Part shown: in pieces, positions 2,126 to 42,742 of the stretch
Numbering within the stretch: position 1 is the stretch's first letter
How the letters are laid out: every line of letters begins with the position of its first letter
Assembly (NCBI GenBank): GCA_950295325.1
Contig: OX485808.1
Span: 7,072,501-7,136,500 of the forward strand
Length of the DNA stretch: 64,000 nucleotides
Source of the DNA: Polytrichum commune
Taxonomy: Eukaryota > Streptophyta > Polytrichopsida > Polytrichales > Polytrichaceae
Reading direction: 5' to 3'
Program-made: the position numbers and the translations under genes
The notes under the pieces: generated by a model
What the model saw: the letters and a program-made list of their open reading frames with translations, nothing else
What the model was told of the DNA's origin: nothing
Databases searched by the model: none

Positions 2126-4734
2126 ATGGAAAGCGAAACGAACTACGAAGTTAGTACTGGACTCCGTCGGCGTGCATCTCTGAGCCATGGTCCTCCCCGC
2201 CGTGTTAAAAAGGCAAGTACGCAACCCTTCTTCCACTCGAAACTTGCGGTCGTAAATTAAGTCCACTATTGCAATCTGGAATGAGAGAGCCCTAATTCCA
2301 TTAGAGCTAGCCATTCACAATTCATCACTGGAATTTTGTTATTTGAGACTCGAATATTACCTGCTGGAATTTTAAAAGAAAATTGAAGTCTGTAAGATTT
2401 TCTCATGGTTTCTTTGGCCGTTTCTTGTTTCCGGAAGATTCAATCCTTGAACGAATTCTTCGCATTCTGCGCTGCTATTCTCTGCACCTATTTATCCTGA
2501 ACTCAGCTTCTTGAAGACATTGTAATAAATTCGTAATGTATTCTTTAATCAGCGGACTGAACCAGATCTTCGAGATGCTGAACAGCAAGCACCACTTGAA
2601 GGATCTACAGAGAACGAGGCAGTAATAGGCCGCGCACAACCGATCCACGAAATAGACTGCGGAAAACAAGAGAACTTGGACAAAGGGAGTGCTGTGGAGG
2701 AAATGGACGAAACTGTGTTACAACTTCTCAAAGAGATTGCAACACAGTGTAATGCATCCTTCAATCAGCATACAGTACAAGATCTTCGAGATGCTGTAAA
2801 GCAAGGAACATTTCAAGAATCTACTGAGAACGAGGCGGTCAAAGTTGGCTCGCAACCAATCCACGGAATAGACTGTGGAAAGCAACAGAACTTCGAGAAG
2901 GGGAATGTTGCGGAGCAAAGGGATGAAAATTTCATACAAATTGTCGATGAGATTGCACAACTGTGTAATGATGTATCCTATAATCGGCGTAAGGAACCAG
3001 ATCTGCGAGATGCTGAACAGAAAGCACCTCTTCAATATACTACAGAGAACGTCGAGCCAGTCACAGTTCTCTCACAGCCAATCCACGAATTAGGCTGTGC
3101 AGAGAACCAGAATTTGGAGGACCAGAGTGTTGCGAGGGAGATGGACGAAGAAGATGGACTTGGAACGGTTCAAGACGAAGTAGTTGTGTTCAAGAGACTA
3201 GCTATAGAGAAGGCCGAAATCCAAGTTCTTCGGGAGAAAGTAAACAACTTCTCTCAGCAGGTAAGCAAAGTCAAATTCATTCAAGTGATTCTAGTGATTC
3301 TAGTGATGATAAATTTCCCTCAAAGTGATGGTAAACTTGTGATGACCGTTCAATTTTTCCATCCTGTATCAACCTACAATGTCAGTCCCTATCATCAGCA
3401 CTGCTTGTTCAGCCGCTAGATTTCTACCTTAAGGAATAAGGCAAGACGTAGGCGTTTACTTCTTCATCGATTAGGTGTGACCACGATCTCGAGTTTGTAA
3501 TCTAGTGTCTCAGGTAATATTGCCAAAACTAGTAGTTCTTGAGAACTTGCAACCTTAAGAACGAATATTTTGTTCTGAACTGCGGTTTTCCTCCATCTAC
3601 GTCCAGACTTTTTTTAACTACCAAGAACCGTAAAATGAGATATAAATCCTATTAAGAATCCGAGGTTAATATATTTGTCATATAAGTGCCATAAAGAGAA
3701 GAGGCGTGCTGCAAGAACCGGTGGCGTAGATAGTACTGACAAGTATGCCCGGGATAATTGAGACCCCATCTCGTAGAATGTAGCACAGACAAATGCATTC
3801 AACAGAATCGTGTGTAGGTCTAATATACATTTACGGGGTGGCGTCACCTCAATAGCAATCCGACCGTATGATTAGCACTTATGATGATTTTACATAACTC
3901 TAATTTCAACACTTGTGGGGCCGTTTTGTTCCAAGCAGATCTCCGAGTTGCTGAATGCTAGTAAAGTTCATATGCTTGATGCGTTGAACGCCTTTACAGA
4001 AGAAATCATGCAGTATCCTTCATCCGGGTCTTCATTTTTACAATCTTTTTGTTTTGCTACAACAGCTTGAGTGTCTTCGGAGGGAGCCGTTTACATACTA
4101 CATTTTTAGAAGATCATTCGTATTGCTAATCATCTCTGCATCAGGAGCATAAGACTTGTGCACACCTGTGTCATCGTTAACAATCTGATCACATTTTGGC
4201 TTCCACTGATTCCATTGTAAACGAACTGTGGCTAGTTATGATCTGGACAGGGCGGAAGAACCATTACGAATTGCATTATCCGCTGTAATCAGTGTATTCA
4301 AAGTCAACTTCTCATGACCCTGTGCTGAGTCTGAAATTTAGCCATAGCTAGTAACACGATTCGGAATTGTAGATAATATGACGAAAGCGGAATGTTGCAG
4401 TACGTCACACTGACGAATCGTTGCTCACTTTCATTCTGGCCTGCTCACACTATCGGTACACTGTAATCAGTGGCACTCTGTGCTCGTGAATGTACTAGTG
4501 TCTGTAAATCTTTGTATTCTTCAATGTACCTGGTAGCTGTCAATGTTATTCTCAACTTATCTATTCAGATTTCATCAGAAAGTGTTTGAAATATTCGAAG
4601 AGGAGATCGAAGGGCTACGCAAAGTTGACATTGCGAACGAAGACAGGTCGAGCTTCCATCTGGGCAAGGCGCGAAATGCTTTTACGGGGTTACAGGTTTT
4701 AGCATCTCGAGATCATCTGCAAGATGGATCGTGA
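2126..4734 (+). CDS. Unrecognised coiled-coil protein with three internal ~72-residue repeats
   Basis: Proposed exons are 2126-2212, 2553-3260, 3939-4012 and 4569-4734, giving 344 codons with matching phases at every junction. Exon 1 is short and basic (RRR, PPRRVKK) and ends at AAG|GCAAGT, a non-canonical GC donor; no usable GT donor fits there. Exon 2 holds three diverged repeats beginning at DLRDA (residues 34, 106, 179), each with STENE, a SQPIH/AQPIH motif and acidic helices. Residues about 237-325 are rich in heptad-like hydrophobics (for example QVLREKVNNFSQQ then FHQKVFEIFEEEIEGLRK), suggesting a coiled coil. The end is uncertain: the frame stops at TGA 4732-4734, but a strong donor (GATC|GTGAGT) at 4731 would carry it into an unseen exon. 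The start was chosen as the first ATG in the frame that joins exon 2. No family recognised; basic head plus coiled coil is compatible with a nuclear or cytoskeletal scaffold, which is inference only. Confidence 0.6.
2565..3200 (+). repeat. In-frame tandem repeat inside exon 2 of the coiled-coil gene
   Basis: Copies start at 2565, 2781 and 3000 (GATCT(T/G)CGAGATGCTG), giving periods of 216 and 219 bp, both multiples of three. The frame is therefore kept and the protein gains 72- or 73-residue units. The third unit is degenerate at its 3' end. Confidence 0.8.
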
Positions 4735-10300: not shown

Positions 10301-13300
10301 AAACGTGCTACCACGGAAACCTCCATATGGAAGAATATTGAGAAAGTCGAGAATCAATAGAAGAGGGCACTCCAAGTATAAACTTTTGTCTTCTAAAGTG
10401 CAGTTAGACAACTTTACTGTGCAAAAACCAATGTCAGAAACATCCTTACTTGGAACCTTTTGAACTCGTTGTTCTTCGCCTCGCGCTGGCACGCCAACTT
10501 TGACAAAGACTCTGCAAACATATCTGTGTCTTTTGGGTCGATGTCAATAGTTACCAGCTTCTCCCTGCACAAATTGCACACGCCACTCTTGTCCAAGTGG
10601 CTTACTGCAATGTCCCATTTCCCCTTTCCAAGCCACCCAAGCCCGTGCCACCCTCCCCCACCTGATCCAAATAACATACAATCTTAATTCAATTCTCCGC
10701 ATACATACCACCAACCATCACCTTCACCGAGTCCTCATCACATCCGTCAATGGACTCATTATATAATATCTTACCAATGTCATTTTATTTTATCAAAAGC
10801 GGCATAGCATTCTTAAAGTGGTGCAGTGGGTGTTCTCGCGATATAAGCATCTTGGAGAGTACACACTCGGTGAGATTCTTTTTGGAAAGGTCTTTTGAGT
10901 TGAACATTGGTGGGTGGGAAAAAGATAGGTGACACTGAGGTGTCCACTTGATTATGCATGTAATCAAGGACCTTGATTCTTGGATTTATTCTTGAAGCTG
11001 GAATTGAAAGCAAACATCCTTGCACATGCTTAAGAATGCTATGTAGGAAACTAACATCAATTCCCAAACAACAATACTTGTTTTAGTGTACTGACACGAA
11101 GCTCTTGAAATCTGTAATTTATTATGTGTTTATGAATGTGAAAAGCTCCCACCTTTCTCGATAGCAATTTGTACATCCTCTGGCCCAGGCGCGTCCTCCT
11201 CCCGGCTCGAAATGCTGGCTGTCGTTGCCGCACTACTACGAAACCACTGCTCGATTACTTCAGACGTGTTTGGCTTGAGTTCACGGACCGATTCCCGTAG
11301 CCGGTGTAACAAGGAGTACACTTTGTCTCCCAAGTTGGCCTGCACACTCACCTGCAGAAGAGCTTCTAACTCACTCTCTTCAGGTTCTACCCCCGCTTCC
11401 CGCATGTGATCATCAACTTCAAAAGCCTTGTCAACCATGTTGTTTTTGCAGTACGTGAAGAGGGCTGGACCATACGAACGGAGCCTGAAAACATCATCCC
11501 CAAAACACCACCTTATTAGTGTTATCAGTAAAGTCTCCGGGTTGAGTTGGCTAAAATGTGAGTTTGAGAGCTTATGCATAAAGTGACCCAAGTTTATTAA
11601 GGTTAAGAGTTAGCATGCTAAAAGAGTGGGGCCAAGTTATTGAAAAAAAGAAAATGTATTTCCAGCTTGTCACAATACTAGGACCAGTGGGGCCATGCTT
11701 GCATAGGCTGAGCCAGGGTTTATGGTGGTGGGTCTCATGGGTCAGACCCTGTTTTAAATCCTAAAGTCTCTCAAATCTTTTCGGGTTAAACAAGTAGGAG
11801 GTCTAAGGAATTGCACTCATGTTTCAAAATTAAACTCCAACTCAAGACACTCTAATGAGCACTTAATTGAGAAGTCCTTCAACGAGGCACCAAACTCCTC
11901 ATCCGGTCCCTCTTTGAGCGACTTTACAGATAGCTCTATCAGCCCAGAACCTGCTCAGAAAATAAAGACTGAATTTGATCAACTCTGACATCAGTGATAT
12001 CTGATAAATGAGAAACACAAGATTTCAGCCTCTCGGCTCTTGGTAAATGAAGCAGCTTCTACTAACTATTAAGACACCTTGAAGACAACAAAAACAATTC
12101 AATAACGTCAATTTATTTAGATTCAACACTCCATTCTCTTGTCCTTGTCCTCTTCCCTTCCAATCTTCAAATATTCTGGATAATGTCAACAGGCCTTGAC
12201 TCTTTCCTCCTGCTGTTACTGATTGAGAAATTCCAACCCCTGAACAGCTCCTTCCTCACTGAAGTTGCTTAGAATTGACATTCTCTTCATCCAGCAAAAT
12301 ATTTGGTGGATTATGGACTGAGACTTTTTTCAGAAATTTGTATGGACTTTTAATGTGAGATTCAGAGTAGAAAACGTTGGTGGACTAATTCAAATTGGAC
12401 CAGAAAAACGATCAGATAAATTTCCATCATTGAAATGTACCTCTTTACTTATCAAAGACACTAGAAATATCCTCTAACTCAACATGACTTTGGTCAGGAG
12501 TTGGTTGTTTTGCATACAAGCCCTTCCATGTTCGGTAAGTTTTCAATGCATGCTTGGAGGTAGTGTGGAGGTTTGAACAAAGAAACATTCTATATCAGTT
12601 CAATGAGGTCGCTCATTTTGGCATGCCAAGAGGTGCTAATATGAGTTTGGCCCTCAATGAACCAAATCAGGTTGCTCTTCATTCAAATGCAAGCACTACC
12701 TTGAGCACAAACCACAAGTGGAAAAAAATCATTGATTTTGTATGCAAAACTCCCAACAAAAAGTATCCTTAAGTTAAAGGATAACTCTACTGTGTGTTGA
12801 TTGCTCGTAATCCATAAATCCAGTCGAACCCTTCACTTTTGAATTTTGCAGACCACAATTACACCTGGAAGTTGCTGATTGTAATGCATCTCCTTTTCCC
12901 TCCTTCCAAAAAAAAAGAATTGGCCATAGACAACCTCAATGAACTGCATGACATGCTGATAAGAGTTGATAAAGCTTGAGGAGGTGATTTACTTGGGTGC
13001 AAGGTTAGCGGCCGCCATCTGCTTGACCATATCAAAGGCAAGATCGCCATCACCTTGTGCCACTGCCAAGCGAGCAACTGCAGTGAATGTCGCCTCATTG
13101 GGTGCAACTCCTCCTTCCTTCATTGCTGCATATATTTTAAAACCTCGATCCAAGCACATCTTTTTTTCCTCCTCCGTCAACGTAATTGCTGCAGCTTCGG
13201 TGACTTCTTCCCCACTCTCTGTGGTGGAACTATCAATCTTTACATTTTCAGCCTCTGTTTTATGATGCTCCTCCACATTACCTGCAAAATAAATGCCGTC

Positions 13301-16300
13301 TTTCAACACTATTGTGTAGTATCTCAAATGTCATGCAGGGAGTAATGTAATGAAGACTAAGATTGTTTAATATCCATTCTCTTTCAGTTGGCTAGGTTCT
13401 CCTTCCCAATTTGAATTTCCTAGCTGCAAAAAATGTGAATGCAGTTCTTCTCCAAATTGCCCAGAATACAAGCAGCACAGCTGGCTGTCCAACTAAACAC
13501 CATGTATACTTATGCAAGAAAACTAGTCGCTTCAATTCAAACACACCTGAGTCCATGTATAAGCTGTGCAATAGTATGTAGCATAGTTAGTCAGCAGAGG
13601 ATTTAAATCAGCATTGACACATAAAATATAAAACTAAAAGAGAGAACTCAGGGCCTGAGGATCTAAACCATTTATACACCATTTATACTATTTAGTGTCA
13701 CGTGCACTATTTGCAAAGGGCCTAATCTAGATGTCTAGAGGTCCCAAAGTGTCACATCCGTTGATTGCCAATATGATACTATTTGTCAACATAAGTAATT
13801 TCTTATTTGCATAATGACATTGAGATACTTGAGATGATAGTTTTGCGTTTTAGTATGCAAGGGGAAGATATTATTGAGCATCCTAATGGCAAGTGTCATG
13901 TGTTCACATTTTAATATACTAGAGGAAGATATTCTTGAGCATATTAATGCCAAGGGTCATTTGTGTACACTTTAGTCACCATGTAGACCATTGTGTAACA
14001 TAGCATACACCTCATAGCAATATTGAAGATACTCATGCCAAGGTATTCGTAAGCGCACTTAAACACCAAGTGTCACGAGGTGACACTAGTGGTGAAGTTT
14101 GTTGGTCATTAGTGTAACCTAGCATACACGTCAAAATAGGGCACGTGACAGTATTATGTATGTGACACTAAATACCATAAAAAGTGTAGTTGATCCATAA
14201 GAAGAGGTTCCAATTTTGCTACCTTCTTTCCGCTCCCTGTTGGTACTCAAAGAAGGCTTCAACGCATCGGAAGCACCTGAAGCACATAAGTAGAGAAGGA
14301 CATTGAAATTGTACTGGTTCAACTTCATTTTCTTCTCTGCGACTATTTTGTCATACAGGGCTATGGCTTTGATAGCATCTGCATACTTTGAGCACATATC
14401 AAGAGCCCGCCGAAGCTCTTGATCTGCGGTGTACTTCTTCTTCTTTATTTGCACTACAATATTTCCATCCTTTGCAACTGGAACTGGTCGTTTTTGACCT
14501 CTGTGATTATCCATTTTTGGTCCCTCAACTGCACTCCGCTTGGATTTTACAGCTGTTTCCTGCAGAGTGACTTCCAACATCCTCAAATATATCAGTTCAC
14601 TATGTCACATAGGTCATACAGATAGTCCTCAACCATCAAAAATTTGAACAACAAAAGTAGAAAAAAGATTCACAATATATCATGGACAGAAAGGCGATAT
14701 TAAGAAGTTACACTAGGTACACTGGAGAGATGAAAGCTTCTCACAACAAGTGTGTGACATGTCATGTGTGGTTGATTTCATATTGTTCATATTCTAATAT
14801 GAAAATAGCATCGCATAACAACCTCAAATGCCACAATTGCCTACCCCTCAGTTTCAATTCAGCACATTCCAAAACTCTCCTCCACACTACATAAGACTTC
14901 ATTTTTAGCATCAAGACACATTACTCAATCAAGAATTTGCCACTCTTGAGACAAACTTAATCTACACTTTGGAACCAAGAACCTTGAAACATAAAAACTT
15001 CAGTGGCAACACATCACCATTTGATTCAAGGTGAGTCCTTCATTGACCATACACCATTGGCTTCTGAAGTAAACTTTTGGAGATTCTAGATAAGCGCCAT
15101 GGTGTTTCTCAAGATTCCTAGTCACTTATCATAAGATAGTGTTCAAGAAACATAAGCATGATATGCATGTCATTGGCATCTCCAAATTGATGGTTCTGAT
15201 GAAGTGAGCCTTACCAGTGGTGGACGTTTTTGTGGCCGAGTAAGTTCGTCTCTGTTTTGAGTAAGACCTGGTTGAGAAAGTCTGGGATGATGAATGGAAC
15301 TTGTGGACACTTTTTTGCACCTTCCCTTCAACTTTTATGTCTGTGGGAAGATCCCCTGACAGCCCTAACCCCTTAGAGCTTGTCGAAGTTTTCCTTTCTC
15401 TGGTTCTTCTTGGAGACTCACTTGACGCAATGTCTGTAGATTCACCTCCATAGAATGGACTATTTATGAGAAATACAGATTGAAGCAATTTTTCTTCAAC
15501 AACAGCAGGTTAAAAAGAATATTAAAAGTCTGGCAACAAAATTCTCTTCAAGAAATTGATACATCCAACTCTGTGACAGTAGGTAGGACATAAGGTGTAT
15601 GGATTGATCTTCTTTGTTGGAAACCTTTATTTGTGTGGAATATGGCAAGGCTTGGAGTTAAGAACGATCACTGAAAAATATAGCATAAATAAATTAACAA
15701 TTAATTCAGAACATCGTTTATCACAAGTATTAGATGATCAAATTTTAATGTATAAACAAGTAAGTACTTTTTTAATTTTAAAAGTAGATTCAAAAAAGAA
15801 AAAGTTTTTATGAATCTAAATCACGTATGGAAACAATGGGATTGGATGATGTGCTCAATTTATTGACACCATTCTAGATTCATTACTTAACACAGATGGG
15901 AGGGTGTATGTGATCGTATGAAAGAGAAAGAGAATCTTCACTTTGACCTCTATACCGTTTGCAGCTCAACTCCAATTCTGAAACTTGAATTGCAATCTCT
16001 GTGATTCCCAATTGCTAACCAGATGAGACATTTCCCAATCCAATCCAATGGCCAAAATTGTCTGTGGAGTTGGAAGTGCCCACAATAGGGGTCACATCCC
16101 TTAGTTTCCCTTAAGATAAGGCACGCTTTATTACATTATATAGCAAACCGAGAATTATTATCCAACTCTGCTGTCTGGAGCTTCAAAGCGAGTATCTATG
16201 TAGCTCTTTAAGATTCAAATATGCTTCCTCACAAAAGCAATTTCCCCATTGCCCACCTCTCAATTCAAAACCTTCAGCTCTTAAACCCTCCAAAACTCTT

Positions 16301-35195: not shown

Positions 35196-37379
35196 ATTCT
35201 TTTCGTTTGTTCCTCTTCATGTGGTGCTGGGTTTCAGCTTTGTTGGAAGGTAACGGTGTACAGTGCATGTCCTCTTCCATCTAGTGGGTTATGTCTGGGT
35301 TCCAGAAATTTCGACCTATGTTAGTTTTTGTGTGTGTGTCAGAGTTGTACGTAAGACAGGAAGAGACACTTGGACCACATGGATCACACTCCTCTTCACT
35401 TCCGATCACGTTCATGGTTTTAATTAATCTCTTCTTGTGGTCCTGGATTTCGACTTTGTGGAGCAATTAAGTTTCACTTGGTGATGGTAATGGTATGGTG
35501 TACGGTGGCGGTCCTTGGCATGGATAGTTCTTCCATCTAGTGGCTTATGTCTGGGCTCCAGAGGATTTCGACCTACCTCAATTTTATGTTGTGTCAGAGT
35601 TGTACGCAACACTGCAAGAAACACATGGATTACATTCCTCTTCACATCTGATCACATTGCTGATATTGATTAGTCTCTTCTTGTGGTCCTGGGTTTCAAC
35701 TTTGCGGAGCAAAGTTTGTGACCGACTTCAATTGGAGATAGGATGACGGTCTACGGTGCCGGTGCTTGCCATAATAGTTTTAAACATAGTGGTTATGTCA
35801 GGGCTCCAGAGAATGTCGACCTACGTCAATATTTTGGTGTCAGGGTTGGGTTGATGTTGATGTTGAGGTTGAGTTGCGATGATATTGTGATTGATTGATT
35901 GTACACATACCGATCACATCGCCCACATTGTTGTTTTATTTTTGTTTGTTTTTTTGTTTGTTTTTCTTTTTGACTTTGTGGAGCAAAGTTTGTGACCGAT
36001 GTCGTGGGGTTTGTCTGGGCTCCAGAAATGTCATATTTTGTGTCTGGCTTGTACTGACACGAGACTGTGAGAGACCGTACGCGAAGTAGTTTCTCTTTTT
36101 CTGCACTTGGGTTGAGGTTGAGGTTGAGGTTGCGATGATAATGTTGTAATTGATTGAAAGCACACCGATCACGTGGGGATCAATTCGACCACATTCGCGA
36201 TTTTCATTCTCTCGTATTTCGGTTTTGACTCTGCTTGTGCTCCTTCGTTTCGACTTTGGAGCAAAGTTTGTCACCGATTTCAATTGGGTAGGGTAATGGT
36301 TCACGGTACAGGCTCAAGAAATTTCGACCTATGTCATGGTTGTACGCAATAGTACTGCAAGAAAACTGGACGCGAATGAAGTCCTCTTTTTCTGCAGTTG
36401 GGTTGGTTTTGTTCTGGTTGAGTTGCGATGATATTGTGATTGATTGGCTGTACACACACCGATCACATCGATCACTACCATGTACCTCACGGTTGTCACT
36501 ATCTTAAACTGTTTGATGAGGGCCACATTTGGAATGAGGCAGCATTTCCAAGTTTCTTGAAAACTTTGCGACTTACTACGGACACTTTACGATTACTTGA
36601 ACCTCATCTGGAAAGTGTCTCTCCAGGTGGGTAAAACTTAACTTGGTGTTTGTCGACAATTAAGGAGGAATCAACAACACGGAAATCGTGACCCTCAATT
36701 TTGAACAATTATAATGTAAGCCACTTCGAAATTGCAAGGTAATGGGCAATAGGCATGAATTATGTGATCGAATGTTATGTAGAACTCTCTCTCTCTCTCT
36801 CTCTCTCTGAGACTTGGTTCATGCACGAGTTGAGTTAACTTCGAGCATTGGACACACTGCATGCTATGATGATGCTTTAAATTATATCATTAGCCTCAAA
36901 GGAGAGTACTGAAGGGGGGATATAAATTAAGTTAATTCGAAACGGTTGAATGCTGCCATGGCTGATGAGAGGTTGGGATCTTCGCCCACTGTTCATATTG
37001 ATTCTACAGTCCTTGTCCGCATTAAATTACTCCCGTTTTTCTTGCAGCATTATGATACATGGGTTTCGTAGCACCATGACCGAATCTATGGGTTCATGTA
37101 GCTTGTGGAGTTAATTAACCACTCAATAGGGAGAGGCTCTTCAAGAAAGTGTTCCTGCAGATGCATAAACAATCTCCCGAAGTTGTAGGATTCTGGTCAC
37201 GGCTCACCTGGGTCAAAGCTAATTTCCTCTCTAGCTTAGCGCCCCCTGGAGACCTAGAAATTTGGGGTAAAACCATCAAAGTGAATCCAACCTGGAATTA
37301 CGTAGCATATTCTATTCAATCCAAGGGTTGTAGGATTTTGAATTCATCGATGGTCATCATGATCTCTTGGGTAAGTTAA
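35067..37379 (+). pseudogene. Coding-like exon cluster, unresolved gene or gene remnant
   Basis: Several pieces look like exons. (i) A 61-codon frame at 35067-35249 beginning MDNRLRQQDNHHQQD and ending at a good donor (GAAG|GTAACG); it contains a (TC)n tract read as Leu-Ser repeats. (ii) 36469-36627 (HVPHGCHYLKLF, GHIWNEAAFPSFL, LLEPHLESVSP) ending CCAG|GTGGGT. Its frame is closed by a stop just upstream and has no AG acceptor before 36527. (iii) A frame at 36955-37068 with ATG in a GCCATGGCT context (MADERLGSSPTVHID). (iv) 37109-37379 (SPEVVGFWSRL, GDLEIWGKTIKVNPTWNYVAYS). I found no phase-consistent joining of all four. The island is GC-richer than its surroundings and preceded by purine-rich and telomere-distal promoter-like DNA. 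I do not recognise the product. It may be a decayed gene, or a real gene with exons I mis-bounded. Confidence 0.35.
35227..36480. repeat. Five-unit diverged tandem array, period 216-280 bp
   Basis: The block around (C/T)GACTTTG(T/C)GGAGCAAAGTTTGTGACCGA recurs with ACTTTG (or GCTTTG) at 35237, 35453, 35699, 35973 and 36253. Each unit also has GGGCTCCAGAAATTTCGACC-like and AGAGTTGTACGCAA-like blocks and ends near CCGATCACAT. It lies between candidate exons (i) and (ii) of the unresolved island and would be intronic if that gene is real. A (TC)n microsatellite at about 35152-35192 precedes it. Confidence 0.75.
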
Positions 37380-37922
37380 TAAGTATGGTAGCCCGAAAAT
37401 CATGGCTCTAGGTTGACTTAGAGTGGAAAATTTGTCAGCCCAAAAATTGAGATGTAAGTACTGGAGAAAATAGAAGGGTTGTTTCTTTAAATATTGATTT
37501 TTTTAAAGATATAGAAGGCCAAAAGCCAACGCCAAGATGAATTAAGAACCAAGGAAAACGGAGGGGAAAACAGACGGGTTGTGATCATGTACATTCATGA
37601 TTCAAACTATCTGATGGCATATTGGCGACAAGTATACCTACCCAACCGGTACTTTCTAATAATGGAAGATTCCACGTATTCTATGAGATAGACGTTTTCG
37701 TCCTTGGATTTGGCTCTAGCCTCTCATCAAGTCTTGATCATGTGGCTTCTGGGCAGGAAGTTAAGGTTAAAACAACCTCGATGTAGCAAGCATGAATAGA
37801 ATCACCAAATAGGGCAAAACAAATGGGTCGTTCGCGGTTAGTGGCTAATTCAGATCCAGGCGGTATCTATTTCCTTTCCGCTACATCTTCGGGGGAGGTG
37901 GTATCCATGGGCTCCTTGACAC

Positions 37923-37930
37923 TATATACA
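37923..37930 (+). promoter_or_regulatory. TATA-like box of the STAR1-like gene
   Basis: TATATACA lies about 118 bp before the first proposed ATG (38041). A start site near 37955 would give a leader of about 85 nt that is pyrimidine-rich (TTCCTCTCTTCTTTTGTTG), as in many plant leaders. The box lies outside the 148-bp duplication, so only one TATA serves both copies of the first exon. Confidence 0.4.
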
Positions 37931-37968
37931 TACATAAATGCAAAACCATGGCTATGCAAAATCCCTCA

Positions 37969-38262
37969 AATTTCAATCTAGTTCCTCTCTTCTTTTGTTG
38001 TTTTCTCCGCAAGCAGTGAGTGCACCGTGGGATCACCAGAATGGCGCCTATTATGTCAGGTTGAACTTTCTGCACACAATTCGTCTAAGTGTTTGAATAT
38101 GGAGGAATATTTGGAAAATTTCAATCTAGTTCCTCTCTTCTTTTGTTGTTTTCTCCGCAAGCAGTGAGTGCACCGTGGGATCACCAGAATGGCGCCTATT
38201 ATGTCAGGTTGAACTTTCTGCACACAATTCGTCTAAGTGTTTGAATATGGAGGAATATTTGG
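37969..38262. repeat. Perfect 148-bp tandem duplication over the first coding exon
   Basis: The segment from TTTCAATCTAGTTCC to GGAGGAATATTTGG occurs at 37971-38114 and again at 38119-38262, offset by exactly 148 bp, with no difference seen by eye. Each copy contains the leader-like pyrimidine tract, the ATG, the 19-nt coding exon and its GT donor. Confidence 0.95.
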
Positions 38263-41200
38263 TGCTGCTTAAGACATAAGTCCCCTAGTTTACAGATGCA
38301 GTGCCAGTGTTGGGTCGTTTTGTAAATCTTTTAAGGAAGTCACCGACCAGATCCTGAACATCTAGGTGTTGGGGTTTTGGGCTTCAGAAATGAGTAATGG
38401 GCAATCAAACTAACTGTATAGGCATGTATAAAAATCCAGAGGGAGAAACTAATCTACGCTGAATATACTTGAATGCAAGCGAAATATTCAAACCCCGCCC
38501 ATAAATTGGGGAGCTACGTAACTTGCCACCGCCAGTAATGTAATAACGTTTTGGGTTATTTGACACTCATTTAATCAAGAGGGTGGATCCACTTGCTAAG
38601 GTTTTGGCGCCTCTCGTACAAGTGGGTCAGGGCTAAGTTGCTTGTTACGAGATTTTGTTGCCATTTGGAATCACTTCGATAATTTCAAGGATTCATTGGT
38701 CAGTTGTGGACTTCCAGTTACAAGTGATTGGTTTCTAACGGCTCAAGCAACACTAACAGGAAAAGAATGTAGGCTTAGTGATTGATACTAGGAAGGTCGT
38801 TAATATGATAGGTTATCTCATCATGATAGTTGTGTGCTTGCACATGAGCAGGGGATGCATTAAGTGTTTACAAGGGTTTGTTGCAATTTGGATTCACTTT
38901 GATTTTCTCAAGGAATTGTTGGTCAGCTGTAGATGTCCAGTGATAAGAGGTGGTTCAAATGCTTCAAGCAACACTAACAGGAAAAGCTTGAAGGCTTAGT
39001 TGAGAGATGCCTGATGGGAATTCTCATCATGATAGTTGTATGTTTTGCATATGAACAAGGGATGAAGTGCGTGTTTACAAAAAATTTGTTGCAAATTGGA
39101 CTTCGATTTTTTCAAAGAATCATCAGTCCGTTGTGGCCTTCCAGTCCAAGAGGTGGTTTCAAACGGTTTAAGCACTAATAGAAAAATCATGAAGGCTTAG
39201 TAAACAAGTACCAGATAGGTTGTTAACACGATAGGTAAGTATATCTCAATCTGTTAGTTGTGTGTTTTTGCATCTGAACAGGGGATGAAGAAGTTAAGGA
39301 GCATTTGCTCAGCATACCCGATGACACAAATGGTGTCTCGCACATTGCAAATTCACACAGTGGCTCAAGAAGCTCATCTCGGAGTGGATCACAGAAAAGG
39401 CCTTGTGCAGGGCACATCAGTATTCAGAACCTGGATAAGTTTGTGGATGATGGCAACCAAATCCTTCGAAGTGTCTCGATGGACATCATGCGTGGGCAGG
39501 TGTACTGCATCATTGGTCCGAGTGGGAGTGGGAAATCGACGCTCCTGAGGGCTATCAACCGCCTGTGGGAGCCTCCGGCTGACTCCATTTTCCTTGATGG
39601 CGAGGACATTGTGAAGATGAATGTGTTGGCTGTTCGTAGGCGAGTGGGGATGCTGTTTCAAACTCCGATGTTGTTTGATGGTAAAGTACCTAACCTCATT
39701 GTACTGTCAATTTTTGTGGATCGTATTTCAGAATGATCTTGCTTGGGGATAGAAGGGTAATTTTAGAGTGAGAGTTAGCTGATTTGTTTGTACTACTCCC
39801 TTAGCATTATTGACATTTGTGTGACTCAACCTCAGTGTGGTTCGAGGTTTTGGGTTGTCACATAGTTAGAGTTCAGAAAACCTTCTCAGGATCTCTGGCA
39901 GATTCATGGTTTGTACTGTATAGTCTTCCGTTGAACCAGGTATTGGCCATTTTGCGACAAATATTGTGTTGTGGCTTTTTTGAAGTGTTGTTTTTCAGGA
40001 CGATCCTTACTTGGGAATAGAAAGCTATTTTAGATTGAGAATCAGTTCATTTTTATGTGCATACCTCCCTTGGCATTGTTGTAATTCGTGTGACATACAC
40101 CAGTGTGATCCAAGGTTTTGAGTGGTCAATGTAAAGTCTTCAGTTAAAGCAATGTTTGGCTATTTGTGACGAACATTGTGAGGTGGCTTTCTGTAGTTGT
40201 GTTATTTCAGAATGATCTTACCACACTATTTAGGAATCTGCTTAGGAATCTGTTTAGAAAGATGTATTTTTTAAAGCAAGACCTAGCTGATTTGTGTGCA
40301 TCCCCTCTCTTGGAATTGTTGAGATTTGTGTGACTTCACAACAATTTGGTTCAAAGTTATGGGTTGTTGCATAGTTAGCATACAGAACCATTTCAGAATC
40401 TTTGGCGGTTTCATGGTTTCTATTTCAGTTAAAACAATGTTTGGCTATTTTGTGACAAACATTGTGCTGTGATTTTTTTGGGGGTTGCGTTTCAGAATAA
40501 TCTTGCTTGAGAATAGGAAGCTAGTTTCTGGACGAGATTCAGCTGATTTGTATGCATCCCCGCCTTGGCGTTGTTGCAATATGTGTGACTTACAACAGTA
40601 TGGTTTGAGGTTTTTAGTTGTCATATGTTTAGTTTTCAAAAAAAAATCAGAATCTTTGGTAGATTCAAGGATTCTGTTGGATTGTCTTCAGTTAAACAAG
40701 GTACCAGCCAAACATTGTGCTGAACCTCTTTTGGGGTTCTTTCAGAACTATCTTGGGGATAGAAACCTGGTTTTATTTCGAGAATTGACTGATTTGTATG
40801 TATCCCTTGGCATTGTTGAAATTTGTGAGACTTACAAACAATGTGGTTTAAAGGTGTGAGGTGTCACATAGGTAGCAAACAGAAAGTCCTCTCAGAATTC
40901 TTGGCAGATTCAAGGTTTCTACTGTATTAGCCACATAGTAATCTTGGGCAAGAACAAACCGATTTCCTCAACTGTTATTTTGTTAACTCTCTGTAGTTGA
41001 TTGCTTCGATTGTGCTACCCCAAACAGAAGGAAGGATACAATGTCAAAGTTTCTGGAATGTACTCTTATCTGGTTGGTTGTCATTAATTATTTTTCGCCT
41101 GTTCCTCTCAGGCACTGTGGCAGATAATGTGCGCTATGGGCCTAATCTTCAGGGGAGGAAACTAACAGACAAACAAGTTGAAGGGTACCTTGCTCAAGCT

Positions 41201-42742
41201 GATCTGGATGCATCCTTTATAAAAAAGTCAATTATTGGTCTCTCAGTGGGCCAGGCACAACGAGTGGCTCTTGCCCGTACCCTCGCCAATGAGCCAGAGG
41301 TGGGCTTACTGCACAAACCTCAACATAAACAAGTTGGTTATGTTTCATGAGATGGGTATTCAATGCTTCTCAATTTGTCAATCCACTTGGATTGAATTTT
41401 TTTCCATTTTCTTGCCCTGTGGTTATACGATAAACAACTCATGGCATGACGATCATGCAATTCATGTCACTGTCAGCATCATTGAGGATAAGATTACCAT
41501 GGTTCAGGCCTCTCAATCCAGATATTTGTCTTCAGGGTATTAGAATTGTGTGTTGTTCCTCCAGATGCTATTGATTTTAGCTTCAGTCAGAAAGTTTGGG
41601 TAATCACTTTAGCGGGAGATGTTGAGAATTCTTGTAGGAATCTGAGAGGCCAACCAACAGTGCCTTCTCTGTTAATTCATGCCATGCTAGTATTGTTCAA
41701 GCCCTTTGTGTGAAGAATCTGCTCTTCACTTTCTTAAGGCTAATCTAGAACATGTTCTTTTCCTATTTTGATACCTCCTAGAGTTCTTGCAGAGTCTCGA
41801 GGATTGACATCAATGTTGTGAACAATTTGGAAAGTAGGATTCCTACTTCTTGAAGTAGGGTTTCCAGTGTTATGTCTCTTTGACCCACAATATCTTGTGC
41901 TGTACAAGCTATAAAATCAGGACATGCTGGCTTAGAATAGACAAATAGATGAATAGGCAGTCACTTGCAGAGTTTCTTTAATTTTTTATTTCTTTGCACT
42001 GTACCCTCCTAGCCCAAGAATCTCAAATAAGTGCACAGAACAAACACACTGTTGCAGAAAATTAATGTTTTTAGAGCATCTCCAACAATAACTGGAAAAT
42101 TGTTCTCTCGATAATTGGCTCTCTGGGTTTTGTTGCAGCAAGTTTGAATACTCTTCCCATCCTTGAAAGACCATTATCCATTATCCAAACCTTGTCATTT
42201 CTTATTGAGAGGTAACCTCAAAAGCTCTATTCACCCTCGAAGATTGAGTGACAGAGGACTTAGAGGGTTGTCTCTCTCAATAATCAATAGTTGATGAAGA
42301 TTTACGGTCTATATCGACTTTGTGGATGGGAAGAGCACGCGGCATTGGCCCAAAAACCTGTGAAAGCCGATTATTGAGAGAAGCATTTTACAGTGACCTT
42401 AGGAGTTGCTCTCAATATGAGATAAATCTATGTGGTTGGTATTGGCGCTCCCTAATTTTTTTAAATTACAACTTTGTGCAGGTCTTGCTCCTTGATGAGC
42501 CGACTAGTGCACTTGATCCTATTTCGACACGCCATATCGAAGAGTCGGTGTTGGAGCTGAAGAGAACGACGGGTTTGACAATCATCATGGTCTCACATAG
42601 TCTTGAGCAAGTGAAACGCATGGCAGATTACATCTGCCTTGTTGTTGCCGGTGAGCTTCTTGAAGTACTCAAACCCACAGAACTCGACAACGCCACACAC
42701 CCTCGAGCTGTAGAGTACCTCCAAGCTGCCCAACAACATTGA
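38041..42742 (+). CDS. STAR1: STAR1-type half-molecule ABC transporter ATPase (ABCI17-like)
   Basis: Nucleotide-binding subunit of a bacterial-type ABC transporter. In rice and Arabidopsis STAR1 pairs with the membrane protein STAR2/ALS3, is linked to UDP-glucose transport and confers aluminium tolerance. Exons: 38041-38059 (or its identical copy 38189-38207), 39282-39680, 41112-41299, 42482-42742; phases agree and give 288 residues, close to rice STAR1 in length. Walker A is GPSGSGKST (85-93), the Q-loop glutamine is 133 (LFQTP), the signature is LSVGQ (183-187), Walker B is VLLLDE (203-208), the D-loop is SALD (211-214) and the switch histidine is 241 (VSHS). Valine replacing the second signature glycine is as in other STAR1 proteins. 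No membrane segment. Residues 1-50 are Ser-rich and variable. Exons 2-4 are secure. The mini-exon MAPIMS with donor CAG|GTTGAA is inferred from phase and position; its donor is weak and another 5' exon is possible. Confidence 0.9.
38628..39281. repeat. Tandem array in STAR1-like intron 1 ending at the exon 2 acceptor
   Basis: Units begin at CAGGGCTAAG (38628), CAGGGGATG (38849), CAAGGGATG (39056) and CAGGGGATG (39279), spaced 221, 207 and 223 bp. Shared inner blocks are TTTGTTGCAATTTGGATTCACTT-like, GTCAGTTGTGG.CTTCCAGT and GCAACACTAACAGGAAAA. The fourth unit start is the real splice acceptor (AACAG|GGGATGAAG) of exon 2, so each upstream unit carries an acceptor-like copy. Confidence 0.8.
39729..40990. 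repeat. Five-unit diverged tandem array filling STAR1-like intron 2
   Basis: CAGAATGATCTTGCTTGGGGA-like unit starts lie at 39729, 39996, 40208, 40493 and 40743 (spacings 267, 212, 285, 250). Each unit continues with AGCTGATTTGT.TGCAT, GGCATTGTTG.AATTTGTGTGACT, GTGGTT..AGGTTTTGGGTTGTCACATAG and TTGGCTATTTTGTGACAAACATTGTG. The array occupies most of the 1,431-bp intron. Every unit start is TTTCAG-like, that is, acceptor-like. Confidence 0.8.

Follow-up and report, generated by a model that had tools for sequence, protein, structure and literature searches.

A recent tandem duplication covering the first coding exon of a putative STAR1-like ABC ATPase gene in Polytrichum commune

Gene structure and predicted product

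The window, i.e., the whole stretch of 64,000 nucleotides of Polytrichum commune DNA analysed here, carries on its plus strand a gene of four exons (Table 1), which, when joined, give an uninterrupted reading frame of 867 nt, stop codon included, encoding 288 amino acids. GT-AG borders were present in all three introns (3/3), and the phase-1 join of exon 1 to exon 2 reads TCA-GGG-GAT. The product matches PF00005 (ABC_tran) of Pfam at residues 68-211 of 288; five further Pfam matches were weaker and concerned P-loop/AAA-type families, and no membrane domain was found among the Pfam matches. The gene hence encodes an ABC ATPase domain without a membrane domain, an organization of the STAR1 type. 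Both the solved structures (best 60 of 596 matches) and the NCBIfam models (best 25 of 192) retrieved were general ABC ATPases, all 25 NCBIfam scores being under the curated cut-offs. A profile search of the same genome retrieved one match to PF03649, which we take to be the STAR2/ALS3 family (C1:29860391-29861083, E 4.4e-67), so that a putative STAR2/ALS3-type partner is encoded as well. The original prediction of a STAR1-like gene was thus supported as to the ABC ATPase, through the Pfam ABC_tran match, whereas the name STAR1 is presumptive. Rice STAR1, which is presented in the available part of its description as the ATPase partner of STAR2 (PMC3150440), presumably resembles the window gene in that the latter encodes a stand-alone ABC ATPase of 288 aa and the same genome contains one PF03649 match.

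Table 1. Features of the putative STAR1-like gene and of the tandem repeat at its 5' end (positions in the window)
Feature	Position	Strand	Basis
TATATA, candidate TATA box, unduplicated, 45 nt upstream of the repeat	37923..37928	+	read from the sequence; candidate motif
Repeat copy 1: leader, 19-nt exon 1, and first 55 nt of intron 1	37968..38114	+	147/147 nt identical to copy 2
Exon 1 in copy 1, ATGGCGCCTATTATGTCAG, donor GTTGAA at 38060	38041..38059	+	19-nt counterpart in the C4 paralogue
Filler base A between the copies, unmatched	38115..38115	.	sequence comparison of the copies
Repeat copy 2; within intron 1 if donor 1 is used	38116..38262	+	exact self-match
Pyrimidine-rich leader of copy 2 with candidate acceptor AGs (exon starts 38162, 38165, 38169)	38130..38169	+	frame computation, composition
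Copy 2 of exon 1, ATGGCGCCTATTATGTCAG, identical donor GTTGAA at 38208	38189..38207	+	sequence identity
Older copy, 3' end of intron 1 plus exon-2 edge; AG retained at 38850-38851	38673..38857	+	local alignment, 134 vs maximum 31 of 200 shuffles
Older copy, 3' end of intron 1 plus exon-2 edge; AG now AA	38896..39067	+	local alignment, 82 vs maximum 31 of 200 shuffles
Exon 2	39282..39680	+	joined reading frame
Intron 2; diverged tandem repeats, 86%	39681..41111	+	blastn self-comparison
Exon 3	41112..41299	+	joined reading frame
Exon 4, including stop	42482..42742	+	joined reading frame

The nearest paralogue is located on contig C4. Its three matching segments show identities of 58, 72, and 70%, and its exons, as read from the sequence, end in the same residues (AAQQH) as those of the window gene. 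A rule-based listing of short first exons upstream of its exon 2 gave 24 candidates, one of which was picked by resemblance, namely ATGGCGCCTGCCGTTTCTG followed by GTAAC at 9732831 (19 nt, phase 1). This exon encodes MAPAVS-G, compared with MAPIMS-G in the window gene. The pattern MAPxxSG followed by GT, framed after the exon had been seen, occurred once in C4 9726500-9734440 and in 0 of 2000 shuffles. The DNA likeness of the C4 exon-1 unit to the window was not significant (score 20 vs a shuffled maximum of 31), and the homology of the two first exons therefore rests on length, phase, encoded MAPxxSG, and position. On these grounds, the C4 exon supports the short first exon predicted for the window gene. 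Together with the 288-aa frame, it bears out the 19-nt phase-1 first coding exon that had been proposed from the window sequence.

Structure and age of the tandem repeat

The first coding exon of the gene lies in a direct repeat, of which the two copies are identical at 147/147 bases with a lag of 148 (exact self-match in the 64-kb window). The single unmatched base between them, an A, differs from both native flanks, which are C at 37967 and T at 38263; for this reason, the unit is taken to measure 147 bp, with one filler base added, and not a clean 148 bp. Of the perfect 148-bp tandem repeat originally described, the identity and the lag were retained and the unit length was corrected. An exact repeat of 147 nt is no chance match. 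In a sample of 20 pieces of 8 kb each from this genome (160 kb), none contained exact self-matches of at least 100 nt at lags of 30-2000, the longest one being 90 nt, within a 91-bp array. The only match in the genome to the 620-bp neighbourhood of the repeat was this neighbourhood itself, in a search that skips very common words. Further, 0 differences in 147 nt correspond, by the rule of three, to a divergence of less than roughly 2% of sites, in agreement with the very recent event that had been supposed.

The repeat thus displays head-to-tail copies, a length between tens of bp and about 200 bp, and a single locus, as does a small tandem duplication made by patch repair. In rice, according to the available parts of the sources, insertions arise most often by tandem duplication, and mutations of 50-200 bp show a high enrichment of such duplications (PMC7971508); they are attributed to the repair of adjacent nicks (PMC7971508; review PMC7407515), and their share of the events, 70% at 125 bp, has dropped to 5% at 200 bp (PMC7971508). 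The length of 147 bp fits the 50-200-bp class yet is situated in the falling part of the rice range, which counts against the reading preferred below. The window repeat shares with these plant duplications, as far as the same sources describe them (PMC7971508; PMC7407515), the class length, the perfect head-to-tail copies, and the lack of any sign of a transposable element; it differs in that it spans a first exon, occurs in another organism, and is known here from the two-copy allele alone.

Older copies in intron 1 and local repeat background

Intron 1 of the C4 paralogue contains three diverged tandem copies of its own exon-1 neighbourhood, at 9733176-9733367, 9733515-9733758, and 9733889-9734129, with local scores of 75, 67, and 83, respectively, compared with a maximum of 27 in 200 shuffles. 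With a shorter unit, these copies scored 66, 38, and 73 (shuffled maximum of 26). From the first of these two comparisons, the best-scoring row (224), in which the reference overlaps itself, and the fifth row (score 21, under the shuffled maximum) were left out, and the shuffles for all local alignments preserved base composition only. The first copy aligns from +34 only, i.e., in the intron; the second one covers the exon in its 3' part and has a T in place of the donor G; and the third one covers the whole exon, ATGGCTCCTGCCGTTTCT, with the donor GT now being AT. No copy was found in the 6.2 kb upstream of the intact exon 1 (C4 9726500-9732700; best score of 19 vs a shuffled maximum of 29), the intact exon of the paralogue being the outermost copy.

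In the window gene, no decayed copies of the exon-1 unit were found in 36000-37967, 38263-39281, and 39282-41111 (best scores of 20, 18, and 21 vs shuffled maxima of 30, 34, and 27, respectively), and a longer one-copy reference found no copy in 38421-39281 (18 vs a shuffled maximum of 26). The two older copies found in this gene are those of the exon-2 edge (Table 1), both located on the intron side, the AG being lost in one of the two. That the older copies of both genes occur on the intron side of the intact exon favours, for this one gene pair, a lasting role of copy 1 as the exon, with copy 2 turning into intron.

Diverged local tandem repeats (blastn, E up to 1e-8, at least 80 nt, lag up to 1200) were present in 10/20 sampled pieces of the genome (4.5% of 160 kb), indicating that tandem duplication is a common kind of change in this genome. 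In the window, they were present in 4/8 pieces, covering 5337/64000 bases with the exon-1 repeat included, and within the gene they make up 51% of intron 1 and 86% of intron 2, while intron 3 is free of them. Most repeat pairs of intron 2 (39681-41111) are 66-76% alike. As a tentative and rather doubtful generalization, intron 1 of this gene family may grow by repeated tandem duplication of exon edges with their splice sites, whereby the outermost copy stays functional and the inner copies decay. If so, the window would represent step zero, with two intact copies, and the C4 paralogue and the exon-2 edge of the window gene would represent later steps.

Predicted splicing outcomes

Reading frames were computed with an assumed 5' end at 37955. 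Use of the copy-1 donor (donor 1) yields the 288-aa protein. Use of the copy-2 donor (donor 2), with copy 1 retained, yields MAPIMSG and a stop at 38062-38064, i.e., a 7-codon upstream ORF, 124 nt past the stop of which the second ATG opens the unchanged 288-aa frame. It is possible that either donor serves, and the choice between them that is put forward below is predicted from the sequence. For both copies to be included as separate exons, an acceptor has to lie between the two. Seven AGs were scanned (exon starts 38075-38189), and the additional exons that they create measure 118, 103, 78, 46, 43, 39, and 20 nt, with products of 47, 42, 18, 23, 22, 301, and 101 aa, respectively, so that only the 39-nt exon is in frame. 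An on/off switch by a frame shift of 19+19 nt, as proposed in the original prediction, was rejected, as none of these seven AGs adds exactly 19 nt.

With a little more than even confidence, the locus is interpreted as an ordinary small tandem duplication, in which copy 1 acts as exon 1 and copy 2 as filler of intron 1, with some use of donor 2. A 147-bp piece, running from the leader through the 19-nt first coding exon into intron 1, would have been copied head to tail by small-scale break repair, an origin suggested by the length, the perfect identity, and the single filler base. Transcription would start at the TATA-like promoter upstream of copy 1; the candidate TATA box is outside the repeat, which places copy 1 at promoter distance from it. 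ATGs occur at 37938, 37948, and 37954 and would be relevant if transcription starts further upstream. A bacterial-type promoter scan was run too, but is not informative for a plant gene. The commonest mature mRNA would join donor 38060 to exon 2 (39282), copy 2 being removed with intron 1. A minor share may use the copy-2 donor at 38208, giving an mRNA with two leaders and the 7-codon upstream ORF, from which the same 288-aa protein would be made less efficiently. The inner copy would be expected to decay, as the older inner copies in this gene pair did. The protein is probably unchanged by the duplication, the effect of which is probably small, and as a regulatory claim the case is an ordinary one until transcripts are seen. 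Against this interpretation, the outer-copy pattern comes from one gene pair, and one of the two exon-2-edge copies keeps its AG.

The choice of donor is the weak point of the preferred reading. Donor 2 may instead be the main site, in which case most mRNA would carry both leaders and the upstream ORF, lowering translation of the transporter subunit with an unchanged protein; we consider this rather unlikely. The two donors are identical and copy 2 is nearer to the acceptor, and where duplicated donors are identical, the intron-proximal one tends to be preferred, so that donor 2 would be the major site. Moreover, the frame from copy 1 ends after MAPIMSG and the second ATG starts an intact ORF; the first ATG has an A at -3 and a G at +4, which is a good context. 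In human DOK7, the intron-proximal one of two donors is preferred, but this rule was seen in human minigenes and the proximal donor was also the stronger one there; putting the proximal donor in the place of the distal one weakened the suppression of the upstream site (PMC5585400, as far as its available text goes). Against donor 2 also stands the intact exon of the C4 paralogue, which is the outermost copy.

A gain of an intron is quite improbable. Here, donor 1 would be spliced to an AG of the copy-2 leader (ending at 38161, 38164, or 38168), creating a new intron of 102-109 nt and an extra exon of 46, 43, or 39 nt. The pyrimidine fraction is 0.82 for the exon start at 38162 and 0.65 for those at 38165 and 38169, compared with 0.59, 0.88, and 0.53 for the gene's own acceptors, and 38060-38161 is 65% AT; however, the 46-nt and 43-nt forms stop after 23 and 22 aa, leaving the 39-nt form as the only one in frame, and most products would be harmful. 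Within 38060-38165, nothing resembling a CURAY branch site was found. A precedent is provided by the potato RdRp gene, in the available account of which a duplication likewise crosses an exon-intron boundary and puts splice signals between the copies (PMC4974935). The new potato intron has 106 RNA-seq reads, whereas the intron considered here is hypothetical, and the duplicated edge in the window gene is a first-exon donor.

It is very unlikely that the repeat is an assembly artefact, with a single copy in the plant and two in the assembly, as might be suspected from the perfect identity of the copies, because 295 bp is short for long reads, the filler base is unlike either flank, which is unexpected from a plain unmerged overlap, and the stretch contains no N. 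Finally, candidate ART1-type motifs occur once per unit, which is the chance level (shuffled mean of 0.93), so that cis-element dosage of this kind was rejected. More generally, an action of the duplication via the dosage of regulatory sequence, as with the tandem repeats in the TaALMT1 promoter, which the available text associates with high expression in Al-tolerant wheat (PMC6480313), is highly improbable, since the duplication leaves out the TATA-like box with the DNA further upstream and the role of the window gene in Al response is putative only. TaALMT1 and the window gene have in common a tandem repeat near the 5' end and a gene type tied to Al tolerance; as a difference, the repeat of the window gene excludes the putative core promoter.

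Under the preferred reading of a small tandem duplication with copy 1 as exon 1, a start exon has been caught just after its duplication, so that a single gene carries its start codon and its first donor twice in identical form, and the C4 paralogue shows what older copies become. In this one gene pair, the competition of splice sites that follows a duplication can be tested directly, as can the growth of introns by duplicated exon edges. In the literature on STAR1 structure, promoter, and moss, and on Al-tolerance tandem repeats, this duplication was not reported among the matches listed (titles and abstract openings).

Other features of the window and the genome

Elsewhere in the window, a 216-bp tandem repeat (2.4 copies, 75%) at 2533-3051 overlaps an open frame of 247 aa, for which no Pfam match was found at E 0.001. 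On the minus strand, at 11130-14586, a pair of open frames gave matches to the PPR region of PRORP (protein-only RNase P), with PPR_long E-values of 1.5e-32 and 9.1e-15. Of the 408 Mb of the genome, nearly everything is contained in seven contigs of 42-78 Mb. In PDB, a light-harvesting fragment of 160 aa from this genome matched 9vfj best, followed by 8htu and 7xqp, which are moss photosystem I entries, so that a moss is likely. In the same genome, C5:1751760-1846160 contains at least 14 matches to light-harvesting proteins with equal profile scores, spread over about 95 kb on both strands; within this cluster, L031 and L032 show full identity over 160 aa in their longest ATG-started frames.
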